This document shows, piece by piece, positions 11,345 to 16,148 of a DNA stretch of 23,887 nt. The stretch is from Flavobacterium psychrophilum (GTDB lineage: Bacteria > Bacteroidota > Bacteroidia > Flavobacteriales > Flavobacteriaceae). The translations under genes were made by a program, and so were the position numbers. The DNA is taken from assembly GCA_945866505.1 (NCBI GenBank), contig CAMBHH010000028.1:1-23887 (forward strand), in the 5' to 3' direction. Each line of letters starts with the position of its first letter. The stretch's first letter is position 1. A model generated the notes under the pieces. It was not told the origin of the DNA and did not search any database. It saw only the letters and a program-made list of their open reading frames with translations.

Positions 11345-12220
11345 TTAATATAAATCGTCGGTTCTTAAATTCAAAAATCGTTGTGTGGCAAAATAAGTGC
11401 TTAACCAAGTAATCAAAACACCCATACCAAATACTAACAGTAACACAAGGGCAACGAGTAATTGGTCGTCTAGAATTCCTAAATCTGGGAAATTGGTTTG
11501 AAGGTAAATTAACACTCCAATTAGTGCTATAATCGCTAAACCAGCGCCAATCATTCCTAATTTGATACTTCGCATTACAAATGGCTTTCTAATGAATGCC
11601 TTTGTTGCACCCACCATTTGCATTGTTTTAATAATAAATCGATGAGAATGTATCGACAAACGTAAGGAACTATTTATCAGTAAAACAGCGATAATGGTCA
11701 AGAATCCGCTTATAATTAAAATCCACATACTTACTTTTTGGATGTTGTCATTGACTAAATTCACCAACTGTTTGTCATATACAATATCAGAAACCATATC
11801 ATTTTTGTTCAATTGCCTTTCAATTTTTGTAATACTATCTTTTTCTACATAATCCGCTTTCAGATTGATATCATACGAATTTTGCAATGGATTTGTGCCT
11901 AGAAAAGTCATAAAATCCTCGCCAATAATGTCGGTATGTTGCTTTGCGGCAGCTTCTTTGGAGACATAAACAAAAGATTTAGTGAATTTTGCGGTTTTTA
12001 AATCTCTTCCAAAAGCCTTTAAAATACTATCATTAGCATCGTTCTTGAAAAATACGGTCATAGCAATTTTTTCCCTGAAATTGTCTGCTAACTTATGAGA
12101 ATTTATAATAAAAAAGCCCAGTATTCCTAAGAGGAATAATACCAAGAATACACTCAAAACTACTGAAAAATAAGAAGAAAGTAACCTGCGTTTTTGAAAT
12201 TTATCAAATGAAGAAGCCAT
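11345..12220 (-). CDS. ftsX: Cell division protein FtsX (ABC transporter permease)
   Basis: FtsX is the permease-like half of FtsEX, which couples ATP hydrolysis in the cytosol to activation of peptidoglycan hydrolases during division. The 291-residue product has TM1 at about residues 18-39 (FSVVLSVFLVLFLLGILGFF). An extracytoplasmic domain spans about 50-165. Three C-terminal TMs follow at about 170-190, 220-242 and 250-275, the expected FtsX topology. The KTMQMVGATKAFIRKPF segment before TM3 matches the FtsX/MacB coupling region. The ATG at 12218-12220 gives MASSFDKFQKRRL. It appears to head a leftward operon with DUF3098, uppP and truB. ftsE is not in the window. Confidence 0.94.
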   Translation of the reverse strand: MASSFDKFQKRRLLSSYFSVVLSVFLVLFLLGILGFFIINSHKLADNFREKIAMTVFFKNDANDSILKAFGRDLKTAKFTKSFVYVSKEAAAKQHTDIIGEDFMTFLGTNPLQNSYDINLKADYVEKDSITKIERQLNKNDMVSDIVYDKQLVNLVNDNIQKVSMWILIISGFLTIIAVLLINSSLRLSIHSHRFIIKTMQMVGATKAFIRKPFVMRSIKLGMIGAGLAIIALIGVLIYLQTNFPDLGILDDQLLVALVLLLVFGMGVLITWLSTYFATQRFLNLRTDDLY

Positions 12221-12310
12221 AGTTTATTGGAATTATGGGGTAAAAATAACAAACAATTTCTTTATTTAAAGTTAATAACGCTCAAACTTTTAACTTTCGT
12301 GCAATAAATG

Positions 12311-12318
12311 TAAATTTG
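12311..12318 (+). promoter_or_regulatory. Candidate -7 box for leuS
   Basis: TAAATTTG matches TAnnTTTG exactly, 100 bases before the leuS ATG in the divergent ftsX-leuS gap. The -33 region has no clean TTTG. The resulting leader would contain the AACTTCT tandem repeat. Confidence 0.4.
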
Positions 12319-12380
12319 CGCAAAAAATTAGTTATTTGACAGTTTTTTTGGTAGATGTTTACTTTAAAGATATCTTCAAA

Positions 12381-12413
12381 AACTTCTAACTTCTAACTTC
12401 TAACTTCTAACTT
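12381..12413 (+). repeat. AACTTCT tandem repeat just before leuS
   Basis: Four perfect 7-base AACTTCT units (12381-12408) are followed by a partial AACTT, ending 5 bases before the leuS ATG. The array occupies the ribosome-binding region of the leader. Short tandem arrays of this kind can vary in copy number by slippage. Confidence 0.85.
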
Positions 12414-12417
12414 AGAA

Positions 12418-15400
12418 ATGAAATACAATCCGAACGAAATCGAAGCCAAATGGCAAAACTATTGGGCCGAAAATCAAACTTTTGCAGCCGAAAACAACTC
12501 CAAAAAGCCAAAATATTATGTTTTGGATATGTTTCCTTATCCCTCTGGAGCAGGTTTGCACGTTGGGCATCCGCTGGGTTACATTGCTTCGGATGTGTAT
12601 TCAAGATACAAAAGACATCGTGGTTTCAATGTTTTGCATCCAATGGGTTACGACAGTTTTGGATTACCAGCCGAGCAATATGCCATTCAAACTGGTCAGC
12701 GTCCTGAAGACACAACTTCGGTAAATATTGACGGTGGTGTTGACAAAGAAGGAAATAAAATTGCCGGTTATCGTAAACAATTGGATAAAATTGGATTTTC
12801 ATTCGATTGGAGTCGTGAAGTACGTACTTCAAATCCTGATTATTACAAACACACGCAGTGGATTTTCATTCAATTATTCAACTCTTGGTACAATAAAAAT
12901 ACCGACAAAGCCGAGGATATTTCGACTATGGTTTCCATTTTTGAAACAGATGGTAATGCTAATGTCAATGCAGTTTGCGACGATAATATTGAAGCTTTTT
13001 CGTCCAGCGAATGGAACGCATTTTCGTCAGAAGACCAACAAAAAATACTATTGCAATACCGTTTAACCTATTTGGCCGAAACCGAAGTAAACTGGTGTCC
13101 CGGATTGGGAACTGTTTTGGCGAATGACGAAATCGTCAATGGCGTTTCAGAACGTGGTGGTTTTCCGGTTATTCGCAAGAAAATGACCCAATGGAGTATG
13201 CGAATTTCGGCTTATGCAGAACGTTTGTTGCAAGGTTTGGATACTATTGATTGGAGCGAAAGCATCAAGGAAAGTCAGAGAAACTGGATTGGAAAGAGTG
13301 TTGGTGCGATGATTTCATTTGCAGTAAAACCTCACCCCCAGCCCCTCTCCAGCGGAGAGGGGAGCCAAGCTGTTGAGAAGGGATATATGACAGCTAATGC
13401 TGCTATTGCTACACAATTGGTTGGTAATGCTCGGGAAAATCGCAAGAATCCAACTGAAGCCGAAGATGCACTTTGGCAAGAAGTTAGAAATTCGAATCTA
13501 GGATATAAAATAAGAAGACAACATTATATTGGAAATTTTATTGTTGATTTTGTTTCTCTCGAGAAGAAGTTAGTTATCGAAATTGATGGAGGATATCACG
13601 AAACAAAAGAACAAATTGAATTAGATGAACAGCGAACTTTAGAATTAGAACAAAAACATCTTTTTAAAGTGATTCGATTTACTAACGAAGAAGTTTTAAG
13701 CAATATTAAGTCAGTTTTATCTAAAATAGAAGAAGAATTAAGTTTACGAAATTCTTACAAAACAAACGATGAGCTCGCTCCCCTCTCCTTTGGAGAGGGG
13801 TTGGGGGTGAGGTTCATAGATGTTTTCACCACTCGTCCCGACACCATCTTCGGAGTTACCTTTATGACACTCGCTCCAGAACACGAATTGGTGGCACAAA
13901 TCACAACTCCAGAACAAAAAGCAGCAGTTGAGGCTTATGTCGAAAAAACCGCAAAACGTTCCGAAAGAGAGCGTATGGCCGATGTAAAAACCATTTCGGG
14001 AGTTTTCACGGGAGCGTATGCCGAGCATCCGTTTACCAAAGAGCCGATTCCAGTTTGGATTGGCGATTATGTTCTGGCGGGTTACGGAACTGGTGCTGTT
14101 ATGGCGGTTCCTTGCGGCGACGAAAGAGATTATGCTTTCGCGAATTTCTTCAAAGGACAAAATGGAATGCAAGAAATCAAGAATATTTTTGACAATGTCG
14201 ATATTTCTAAAGAAGCTTATGGTTCTAAAGACAATGTCGTTATTGCCAATTCTGATTTCTTGAATGGATTAGGATACAAAGAAGGAACCAAAAAAGTAAT
14301 TGCTGCATTAGAAGAAATTGGGCAAGGAAAAGGGAAAATCAATTACCGTTTGCGTGATGCGGTTTTCTCTCGTCAAAGATATTGGGGTGAACCCTTTCCG
14401 GTATATTATGTGAATGGCTTACCGCAAATGATTGATGCAAAATATTTGCCAATCGTATTGCCAGAAGTGGAGAAATACTTGCCAACCGAAGACGGATTGC
14501 CGCCTTTAGGAAATGCTTTGGTTTGGGCTTGGGATAGTGTTCAGTGTTCAGTTGTTAGTACGCAGTTGATTGACAATATAACAATATTTCCTCTTGAATT
14601 GAACACAATGCCAGGTTGGGCAGGGAGTTCTTGGTATTGGATGCGCTATATGGATGCAAACAACGACGGAGAATTTGCAAGCAAAGAGGCTTTGAAATAT
14701 TGGGAAAGCGTGGATTTATACATTGGCGGCAGCGAACACGCAACAGGTCATTTATTGTATTCCCGTTTTTGGAACAAGTTCCTAAAAGACAAAGGTTTTG
14801 CACCTACCGAAGAACCTTTCAAAAAACTGATTAATCAGGGAATGATTTTGGGAATGAGTGCGTTTGCGTATAAGATAAATACAAGTCGCTTAGAAGTTAT
14901 TGGCAGCGATAGTTTTGAAAATAAAAATTTATTTATATCAAAAAGTGAATTTCAAATATTTAATAAAATTTGTTCATTAAGCGGTATTCGTCAAATTGAA
15001 TTTGATTATGATAGTGAATCTGAAATAGCTAAAGTTGTTTTTATTGATGATAACTTGAAAGTAATAATTAATGATGATGTTGATAAAGAATATTTGGATT
15101 TTGTAAATCTTTTGGGTTGGAAGTTGATATCTATATATGGTATAAATGTATCCTCAATAAAAATTGATTTAGAATTTCTATTGATGCCTATTCACGTTGA
15201 TGTTTCAATGGTTAATTCTTCAGATGAATTAGATACAGAAAAATTCAAAGCTTGGAGAGAAGATTATGCGGATGCTATTTTTATTACCGAAGAAAACGGA
15301 AAATATATCGTTGGTCGCGAAATCGAAAAAATGTCCAAATCGAAATACAATGTAGTTACTCCAGATGATATTTGCAATGAATACGGCGCTGATACTTTGC

Positions 15401-16008
15401 GTTTATATGAAATGTTCTTAGGACCATTGGAACAAGCCAAACCATGGAACACCGCAGGAATTTCTGGAGTTTTTGGTTTTCTTAAAAAATTATGGCGTTT
15501 GTATTTTGACGAAAATGGTTTAATTGTAAATAACGAGACGCCAACGAAAGACAACTTAAAATCATTACATAAAACCATCAAAAAAGTAGCAGAAGATATT
15601 GAAGGGTTCTCTTTCAACACTTCAGTGTCACAGTTTATGATTTGCGTGAATGAATTGTCAACCCAAAATTGTCATTCTCGTGCAATTTTAGAACCATTGA
15701 CAGTCTTGATTTCGTCTTATGCACCGCATATTGCTGAGGAATTGTGGAGTCAATTAGGAAATGCAGGCTCGATTTCGACCGTTGCTTTTCCAATATTGGA
15801 CGAAAAACATTTGGTGGAAAGCAGCAAGGAATATCCGGTTTCTTTCAATGGGAAAATGCGTTTTACTATAGAATTGCCTTTGGATTTATCGGTTCCTGAA
15901 ATTCAGGAAATCATAATGAAAGACGAAAGAACTTTGAAACAATTGGACGGAAAAACGCCAAATAAAATAATCATTGTTCCTGGAAAAGTGATTAATTTGG
16001 TGGGATAA
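12418..16008 (+). CDS. leuS: Leucine--tRNA ligase with in-frame DUF559 nuclease insertion
   Basis: This class I synthetase charges tRNA(Leu) and edits misacylated tRNA. It has 1196 residues, against roughly 900-950 usual for the phylum. Catalytic motifs are intact: HVGH (residues 48-51) and KMSKS (971-975). The CP1 editing domain keeps FTTRPDTIFG (470-479) and GTGAVMAVP followed by D568 and D571. Two inserts explain the length. Residues 305-465 are a repeat-bounded DUF559 nuclease cassette in the loop between SFAVK and FIDVFTTRP. Residues about 820-922 are an AT-rich segment of unknown origin. Both keep frame, and the C-terminal anticodon-binding and tail region runs to a normal end. No other LeuRS gene is visible, so the protein is probably functional, unless the insert is removed at RNA or protein level, for which I see no signal. 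Confidence 0.95.
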   Translation: MKYNPNEIEAKWQNYWAENQTFAAENNSKKPKYYVLDMFPYPSGAGLHVGHPLGYIASDVYSRYKRHRGFNVLHPMGYDSFGLPAEQYAIQTGQRPEDTTSVNIDGGVDKEGNKIAGYRKQLDKIGFSFDWSREVRTSNPDYYKHTQWIFIQLFNSWYNKNTDKAEDISTMVSIFETDGNANVNAVCDDNIEAFSSSEWNAFSSEDQQKILLQYRLTYLAETEVNWCPGLGTVLANDEIVNGVSERGGFPVIRKKMTQWSMRISAYAERLLQGLDTIDWSESIKESQRNWIGKSVGAMISFAVKPHPQPLSSGEGSQAVEKGYMTANAAIATQLVGNARENRKNPTEAEDALWQEVRNSNLGYKIRRQHYIGNFIVDFVSLEKKLVIEIDGGYHETKEQIELDEQRTLELEQKHLFKVIRFTNEEVLSNIKSVLSKIEEELSLRNSYKTNDELAPLSFGEGLGVRFIDVFTTRPDTIFGVTFMTLAPEHELVAQITTPEQKAAVEAYVEKTAKRSERERMADVKTISGVFTGAYAEHPFTKEPIPVWIGDYVLAGYGTGAVMAVPCGDERDYAFANFFKGQNGMQEIKNIFDNVDISKEAYGSKDNVVIANSDFLNGLGYKEGTKKVIAALEEIGQGKGKINYRLRDAVFSRQRYWGEPFPVYYVNGLPQMIDAKYLPIVLPEVEKYLPTEDGLPPLGNALVWAWDSVQCSVVSTQLIDNITIFPLELNTMPGWAGSSWYWMRYMDANNDGEFASKEALKYWESVDLYIGGSEHATGHLLYSRFWNKFLKDKGFAPTEEPFKKLINQGMILGMSAFAYKINTSRLEVIGSDSFENKNLFISKSEFQIFNKICSLSGIRQIEFDYDSESEIAKVVFIDDNLKVIINDDVDKEYLDFVNLLGWKLISIYGINVSSIKIDLEFLLMPIHVDVSMVNSSDELDTEKFKAWREDYADAIFITEENGKYIVGREIEKMSKSKYNVVTPDDICNEYGADTLRLYEMFLGPLEQAKPWNTAGISGVFGFLKKLWRLYFDENGLIVNNETPTKDNLKSLHKTIKKVAEDIEGFSFNTSVSQFMICVNELSTQNCHSRAILEPLTVLISSYAPHIAEELWSQLGNAGSISTVAFPILDEKHLVESSKEYPVSFNGKMRFTIELPLDLSVPEIQEIIMKDERTLKQLDGKTPNKIIIVPGKVINLVG
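13330..13365 (+). repeat. Left palindromic terminal repeat of the leuS element
   Basis: It begins CCTCACCCCCAGCCCCTCTC and holds an internal palindrome CCCCTCTCC-agc-GGAGAGGGG (about 13342-13362). In the leuS frame it reads PHPQPLSSGEGS. It matches the reverse complement of 13777-13812 at all but about three positions. Confidence 0.92.
13387..13776 (+). other. DUF559 / Vsr-like endonuclease domain within LeuRS
   Basis: LeuRS residues 324-453 form a domain that I recognise as DUF559, a PD-(D/E)XK fold related to very-short-patch-repair endonucleases. It shows NARENRKNPTEAEDALW (helix with E347 and E349), YKIRRQHYIGNFIVDF with D377, then LVIEIDGGYHE with E388 and D390. KVIRFTNEEVLSN (C-terminal strand and helix) follows. 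All expected acidic catalytic positions are present, so decay is not evident. The stretch begins at an internal ATG (13387) with a purine-rich GAGAAGGGA just upstream, so separate initiation is conceivable. It has no stop codon of its own. Confidence 0.85.
13777..13812 (-). repeat. Right palindromic terminal repeat of the leuS element
   Basis: It runs GCTCCCCTCTCCTTTGGAGA then GGGGTTGGGGGTGAGG. The internal palindrome is CCCCTCTCC-ttt-GGAGAGGGG. In the leuS frame it gives APLSFGEGLGVR, a peptide string I recognise from many Bacteroidota reading frames that run through this repeat family. Confidence 0.92.
14536..14559 (+). repeat. CAGTGTT micro-tandem within leuS
   Basis: Two adjacent GTTCAGT units (AGTGTTCAGTGTTCAGTTGT) encode the SVQCSVVST stretch of LeuRS, in a loop that is variable between species. 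A related ATACTGTTTACTG string occurs at 11028-11040. It may be a fragment of a dispersed repeat or chance. Confidence 0.3.
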
Positions 16009-16035
16009 AAGGCAAAATTCTAACTTTGAAAATTC

Positions 16036-16077
16036 CAAATTCCAAAAAAAGTAGTTAATTGGAGTTTGCGTTTTTTT
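16036..16077 (+). terminator. Intrinsic terminator of leuS
   Basis: CAAATTCCAA (16036-16045) pairs with TTGGAGTTTG (16059-16068), with one G-U pair, and is followed by seven T at 16071-16077. It lies 28 bases after the leuS stop codon. Confidence 0.65.
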
Positions 16078-16085
16078 GCTCATAA

Positions 16086-16148
16086 TTTGTCATTCCGTAG
16101 GAATCTGTTTTTACAGTAAATAGAAATAGATTCCTACGGAATGACAAA
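16086..16148. repeat. 63-bp perfect inverted repeat (GTCATTCCGTAGGAATC)
   Basis: Perfect 21-base arms TTTGTCATTCCGTAGGAATC-T (16086-16106) and their complement (16128-16148) flank a 21-base centre. The arm word is a short dispersed palindromic element that I know from flavobacterial genomes. It sits downstream of the leuS terminator and has no U-tract, so it is more likely a small non-autonomous mobile element than a terminator. Confidence 0.75.

Follow-up and report, generated by a model that had tools for sequence, protein, structure and literature searches.

A palindrome-ended cassette for a predicted DUF559 nuclease, in frame within leuS of Flavobacterium psychrophilum, belongs to a likely mobile family in Bacteroidota

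A DUF559 cassette inside leuS

The stretch analysed here (the window) is 23,887 nucleotides of Flavobacterium psychrophilum DNA, contig CAMBHH010000028.1 of assembly GCA_945866505.1, and all features below lie on its forward strand. The leuS gene for leucine–tRNA ligase (LeuRS; 12418..16008) is a single open frame of 1196 amino acids that matches TIGR00396 with 863.1 bits. Within it lies an element of 483 bp (13330..13812), 161 in-frame codons encoding residues 305–465, whose DUF559 domain (13423..13740, residues 336–441; E 6.5e-29 against the whole protein) has a predicted Vsr/EDxHD-type nuclease fold. An original prediction, made from the letters alone, had proposed an in-frame nuclease cassette at this place; the stop-free frame and the intact domain bear it out. 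The element is positioned immediately before the editing-domain motif FTTRPDT, and the editing domain PF13603 resumes directly after it (13816..14310; Pfam match from residue 467). The junction in the window reads ISFAVK–(161 codons)–FIDVFTTRPDT, where the uninterrupted LeuRS P0241 has VTFNVQNHEASIDVFTTRPDT, so that the insert replaces about five loop residues. P0241, with flanks 89% and 87% identical to the window, provides the kind of empty site that the original prediction suggested looking for in close relatives.

Four of the acidic residues first assigned to the nuclease, E349 (13462..13464; position 45 of alignment A1), D377 (13546..13548; position 73), E388 and D390, are invariant among 66 relatives (A1) and 59 LeuRS proteins (A2), but a fifth, E347, is variable. 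H394 should be added to the conserved set on the evidence of the same alignments, which gives a predicted active-site stretch E388-x-D390...H394 at 13579..13599 (A1 positions 84, 86 and 90). A predicted model of the domain (mean predicted local distance difference test score, pLDDT, 82) matches the DUF559 protein 3hrl, the catalytic domain of I-Bth0305I and Vsr; together, the modelled fold and the E, D, ExD and H residues suggest an EDxHD/Vsr-type enzyme. A model of full-length LeuRS (pLDDT 52) was too poor and was discarded. The ratio of nonsynonymous to synonymous divergence (dN/dS) of the insert is 0.03–0.14 in 22 of the 24 pairs that gave a value and 0.24 and 0.32 in the other two; judged by these codon comparisons, the domain is under purifying selection.

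As had been expected, there is no trace of an intein or intron core: no Hint splicing domain was found among the Pfam matches of the 1196-aa protein, and the stretch 12001–16100 has no Rfam match up to E 0.1 and hence no catalytic core of a group I or II intron. DUF559 is the only match within the element, which encodes no recognisable transposase or recombinase.

Palindromic ends

The cassette had been described as having inverted, internally palindromic ends, and these resolve into two 38-nt arms (13328..13365 and 13777..13814) that are 92% complementary and separated by 411 nt. Each contains CCCCTCTCC-NNN-GGAGAGGGG, a perfect 9-bp hairpin (13342–13362 and 13780–13800). When up to three mismatches are allowed, the hairpin pattern matches twice in the window and never in 100 dinucleotide shuffles, and single-strand DNA folding of the two ends beats 200 of 200 shuffles.

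The pairing of terminal repeats with DUF559 recurs in other genomes. With short domains and copies close to a contig end set aside, 79 of 117 copies have inverted ends that outscore every one of 100 shuffles: 24/27 in MetH, 26/35 at LeuRS site 303, 5/10 in RecB, 0/9 in RecG, 17/27 standalone copies and 7/9 in seven other groups together. By eye, the ends of the RecG copies are shorter and gapped. The end sequence varies with lineage while remaining palindromic in many copies. The exact leuS-type palindrome occurs at only 2 to 8 sites per genome in six genomes, and two of these genomes (G003 and G004) have it nowhere but at the two ends of their leuS element; it is therefore an element end and not a dispersed repeat. 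The family thus has the terminal inverted repeats of insertion sequences, in the window and in those 79 copies, and lacks, in the six genomes, the many scattered palindromes of repetitive extragenic palindromic sequences or miniature inverted-repeat transposable elements. Two short-frame copies from Hymenobacter (L050 and L053) have inverted ends of 55–65 nt in which the hairpin and a GGGGTGG tract stand in reverse order.

Empty sites, remnants and a permissive loop

The spacing between two LeuRS anchors is 20–37 residues in 40 domain-free leuS genes, as against 133–260 in 33 filled ones. At the RecG site, empty proteins have KLWKKNDIPPHV and filled ones KLWKK–element–PPHV, with small variations. 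Had all relatives carried the insert without repeats, an old domain would have been the simpler account, but many filled relatives have repeats and many relatives lack the insert. Misassembly was considered as a source of the leuS insert and rejected, as assemblies of other species show the same structure.

Elements also appear to be lost in frame. In one of 30 domain-free RecG genes (L216), about 11 in-frame codons of an element-end remnant persist with no nuclease. Four copies (L109, L110, L111 and L112) each lack at least one of the five active-site residues and none has detectable ends, a combination that fits decay; this is suggestive only, since two of the four are sisters and 34 other copies without ends keep the residues. 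A MetH copy (L115) has a frame break within the end repeat at a site that is intact in other genomes.

The leuS loop is itself permissive, a landing pad for in-frame repeats. Nine LeuRS proteins without the nuclease (L153, L160, L171, L155, L161, L156, L159, L173 and L144) carry other in-frame repeats there, of ACAACC type, AAAGTC type, IASEAKQS and PSAVEG. This permissiveness explains the survival of an insert, not lineages bound to one site.

Hosts and distribution

Used as a query against proteins, the insert region gave 1929 matches, of which the 120 listed are mostly LeuRS, some with two copies, and include IleRS-like and MetH-like proteins with two or three. A genome scan found 28 loci, 27 of them in frames of at least 464 aa, from Flavobacterium to Bacteroidales, Cyclobacteriaceae, Chitinophagaceae and Hymenobacter. 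Hosts assigned by profile are LeuRS, ValRS, MetH, a RecB-like helicase, RecG, a PD-(D/E)XK_1 protein (which we label AddB-like), tryptophan dioxygenase, GH31, a DNA methylase and a type ISP restriction protein. The element is thus not specific to leuS, as the original prediction might suggest; it belongs to a family that occupies fixed sites in a number of core genes and also has intergenic members.

Among 199 Flavobacterium genomes, 105 have some DUF559 match and 21 have the leuS insert. Flavobacterium laiguense (L002) is a cultured carrier, with a LeuRS of 1111 aa including the insert. Matches listed at E ≤ 1.3e-21 number 125, and the 67 in frames of at least 465 aa occupy five host genes at seven sites: LeuRS 303 and 435, MetH 396 and 820, RecB 718, RecG 412 and ISP ~1030. 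Phylum-wide, 102 matches at E ≤ 1e-15 fall in 49 of 118 genomes. Three standalone copies inspected closely are intergenic. The idea that standalone copies split genes was discarded: joining 17 flank pairs gave three long frames (L033, L039 and L125), which look like neighbouring genes, named by eye. Several LeuRS proteins (L091, P0053, P0059, P0066 and others) contain two DUF559 inserts at different sites.

Exchange between hosts

On a LeuRS host tree of 72 rows, 32 of them filled, presence of the insert needs 16 changes, 13 of which are forced by well-supported branches. The tree comprises 40 insert-free leuS genes drawn from a larger number, plus filled ones found in the Flavobacterium listing, so that the filled share does not measure how common the insert is; loci present twice and the partial L011, L018 and L072 were dropped, and L107 has no anchor. 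A MetH host tree (49 rows, 17 filled) needs 10 changes, 9 of them forced. On a tree of 157 insert domains, copies sort by gene and site with 31 changes against 108.5 when shuffled, although trees of so short a domain are weakly resolved and gave long-branch warnings. Inserts at LeuRS 303 need seven changes on it, indicating several insert lineages at that site.

Host and insert histories conflict. The hosts L010, L094 and L099 are sisters, and the insert of L010 groups with L008/L011, those of L094 and L099 with L081/L091. The insert of L110, the host neighbour of the window, belongs to another lineage, and L173, which falls with them in one supported group of three, lacks the element. When four host groupings are imposed on the insert, approximately unbiased (AU) tests reject each of them (p 1.3e-41 to 2.7e-56); the groups were picked after the trees were seen, and two of them (L073/L081/L001/L004 and L002/L003/L059/L062) are supported with further rows in the 72-host tree, not as such in the smaller AU host tree.

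Of 21 hand-picked close pairs that gave both values, 17 have a lower synonymous divergence in the insert than in the host, by up to 18-fold. One metH pair has inserts 98% identical and a host-gene synonymous divergence of 1.4. In 500 pairs, the excess similarity of the insert is at least 0.1 in 140, at least 0.2 in 45 and −0.2 or below in 18; a separate set of 321 pairs has 57 above +0.15 and 28 below −0.15.

Nature of the element

The element is in frame, bound to its site, exchanged between hosts, under selection, palindrome-ended in most copies and deletable. We consider it likely that the insert is one copy of a Bacteroidota-wide group of palindrome-ended DUF559 cassettes, selfish and mobile, that enter one coding site and are read through. 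This agrees with the selfish, non-splicing element first proposed, and draws on the empty sites, patchy distribution, tree conflict, linked palindromic ends, kept frame and conserved homing-type fold. Mobility, cleavage and translation of the fused LeuRS are what we infer from these patterns. The EDxHD/Vsr-type nuclease would cut or nick the empty allele and thereby drive its own copying, with the palindromic ends delimiting the stretch to be copied. Uninterrupted translation by the ribosome would let the element survive inside the host protein, and the fused LeuRS may be produced and functional because the insert falls in an editing-domain loop whose length varies. After fixation, the element could decay or be deleted in frame.

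A review (PMC3943268) describes EDxHD enzymes as homing endonucleases with long targets, and I-Bth0305I as a multi-domain enzyme of phage origin whose target spans nearly 60 bp; a genome paper assigns a DUF559 gene to the same homing family (PMC9403480). The present elements share with that family empty and filled sites and lineages tied to a site. The PDB entry of I-Bth0305I (3r3p) is named 'mobile intron protein', whereas here no intron was found and the nuclease is a domain within the host enzyme. A Caulobacter DUF559 protein has been proposed as a Vsr-like repair enzyme (PMC12907096). The Vsr mismatch endonuclease itself is a free repair enzyme, unlike the embedded domain described here. 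Inteins and intron-borne homing genes occupy conserved coding sites in essential genes, show empty/filled dimorphism and form site-bound lineages. The present elements resemble them in all these respects, but have no splicing element, would stay in the protein, have palindromic ends and show no co-conversion. Rickettsia palindromic elements are palindromes inserted in frame in many genes and are not known to carry a nuclease gene; in-frame palindromes are shared with them, but the copies studied here are few and bound to fixed sites.

Several observations weigh against a selfish element that homes into coding sites. End repeats do not exceed the shuffles in 38 of the 117 copies, 34 of which retain all five active-site residues. 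Roughly 2–10 host codons are replaced at the junctions, and those read by eye show no target-site duplication. Across the full set of pairs, inserts are not as a rule more similar to each other than their hosts are. Many family members do not live in proteins, to go by frame lengths: 58 of the 125 Flavobacterium matches lie in frames of at most 355 aa (including two metH copies, either broken in frame or at the end of a contig), and just 16 of the 102 matches across the phylum lie in frames of at least 839 aa, the remainder being mostly short standalone frames. None of 16 candidate viral-contig stretches encodes a relative, so no phage-borne copy was seen among them.

Nor was co-conversion of the flanks seen. 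In the 45 pairs with the largest insert excess, the first 150 nt of host sequence score 0.37 against 0.34–0.36 for distant host sequence; no tract is visible at this 150-nt resolution, and old transfers could hide one. No tract appeared in the comparison of 321 pairs either, but its first bin contains the element ends, so that this comparison decides little. In the pair L084/L097, the inserts are ~98% identical and the right flank (the left is off the contig) is at 0.73–0.90 from the second 48-nt window onward, with one later window at 1.00. This lack of visible co-conversion speaks against homing of the classical kind, driven by recombination. The tracts may be very short, or else the hairpin ends bound a unit that goes in by itself; in both cases a nuclease would drive movement to a specific site, with no splicing.

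Because the transferred unit stops abruptly at the borders of the element, with no co-conversion seen, the element may move more like a site-specific transposon than like a classical homing gene. As a full alternative, in which the DUF559 protein acts on hairpin ends bounding the unit and no homologous repair of the target takes place, this is possible but doubtful: a transposon of this kind would encode no transposase or recombinase and leave no target duplication, and its lineages keep to one gene site and do not roam. It is unlikely that tolerance alone explains the pattern, with insertion anywhere and carriers surviving only in a few permissive surface loops, so that sites reflect survival and not targeting. 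The other in-frame repeats in the same loop of nuclease-free LeuRS favour this, but random insertion predicts intergenic copies of the leuS lineage, and just one standalone copy is present in its 17-row clade; moreover, the 67 in-frame Flavobacterium copies occupy only seven sites. We regard as very improbable an old LeuRS domain that serves the host (for instance by cleaving tRNA or DNA under stress) and has been passed down vertically with frequent losses; purifying selection and the identical site across families would suit it, but the same kind of cassette lies in unrelated enzymes, insert and host trees conflict, sister species hold different insert lineages at one site, and the end repeats still pair. 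An intervening sequence that is taken out before LeuRS acts, by splicing as an intein or intron or by ribosome bypass, could use the long inverted ends to join its junctions but is highly improbable: neither splicing signature was found, and the copies keep the frame, free of stops, which would not be necessary if they were spliced out.

The components of the selfish cassette that we favour are known (a homing-type nuclease, palindromic ends and in-frame insertion). Their combination without splicing, at fixed sites in essential enzymes across a phylum, was not found described, nor were in-frame DUF559 elements, in the open PMC literature, where 14 papers name DUF559; most subscription papers and preprints fall outside this search. 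On balance, we lean slightly towards seeing here a class of mobile element that is new: homing nucleases embedded in proteins, without splicing, at one codon-level site of essential enzymes, with palindromic ends that are open in frame, carried by LeuRS, MetH, RecG or a RecB-like protein and replacing each other in sister species. Selfish nucleases are thought to require an intron or intein for harmless entry into essential genes. The family suggests a third way, in which the ends and the fold are tolerated by the host protein. As living species show copies at the stages of insertion, exchange, decay and scar, the entry of domains into old enzymes becomes testable. The family also draws attention to compact nucleases whose natural targets appear to be fixed.

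Other insertions and repeats at leuS

The LeuRS of the window has a second private insertion of ~120 residues (14860–15222) with no Pfam match; among 117 candidates, only P0241 matches it, at 76% identity. Just 5′ of leuS (12381–12415) lies an AACTTCT tandem repeat similar to the in-frame repeats in the leuS loops of relatives.
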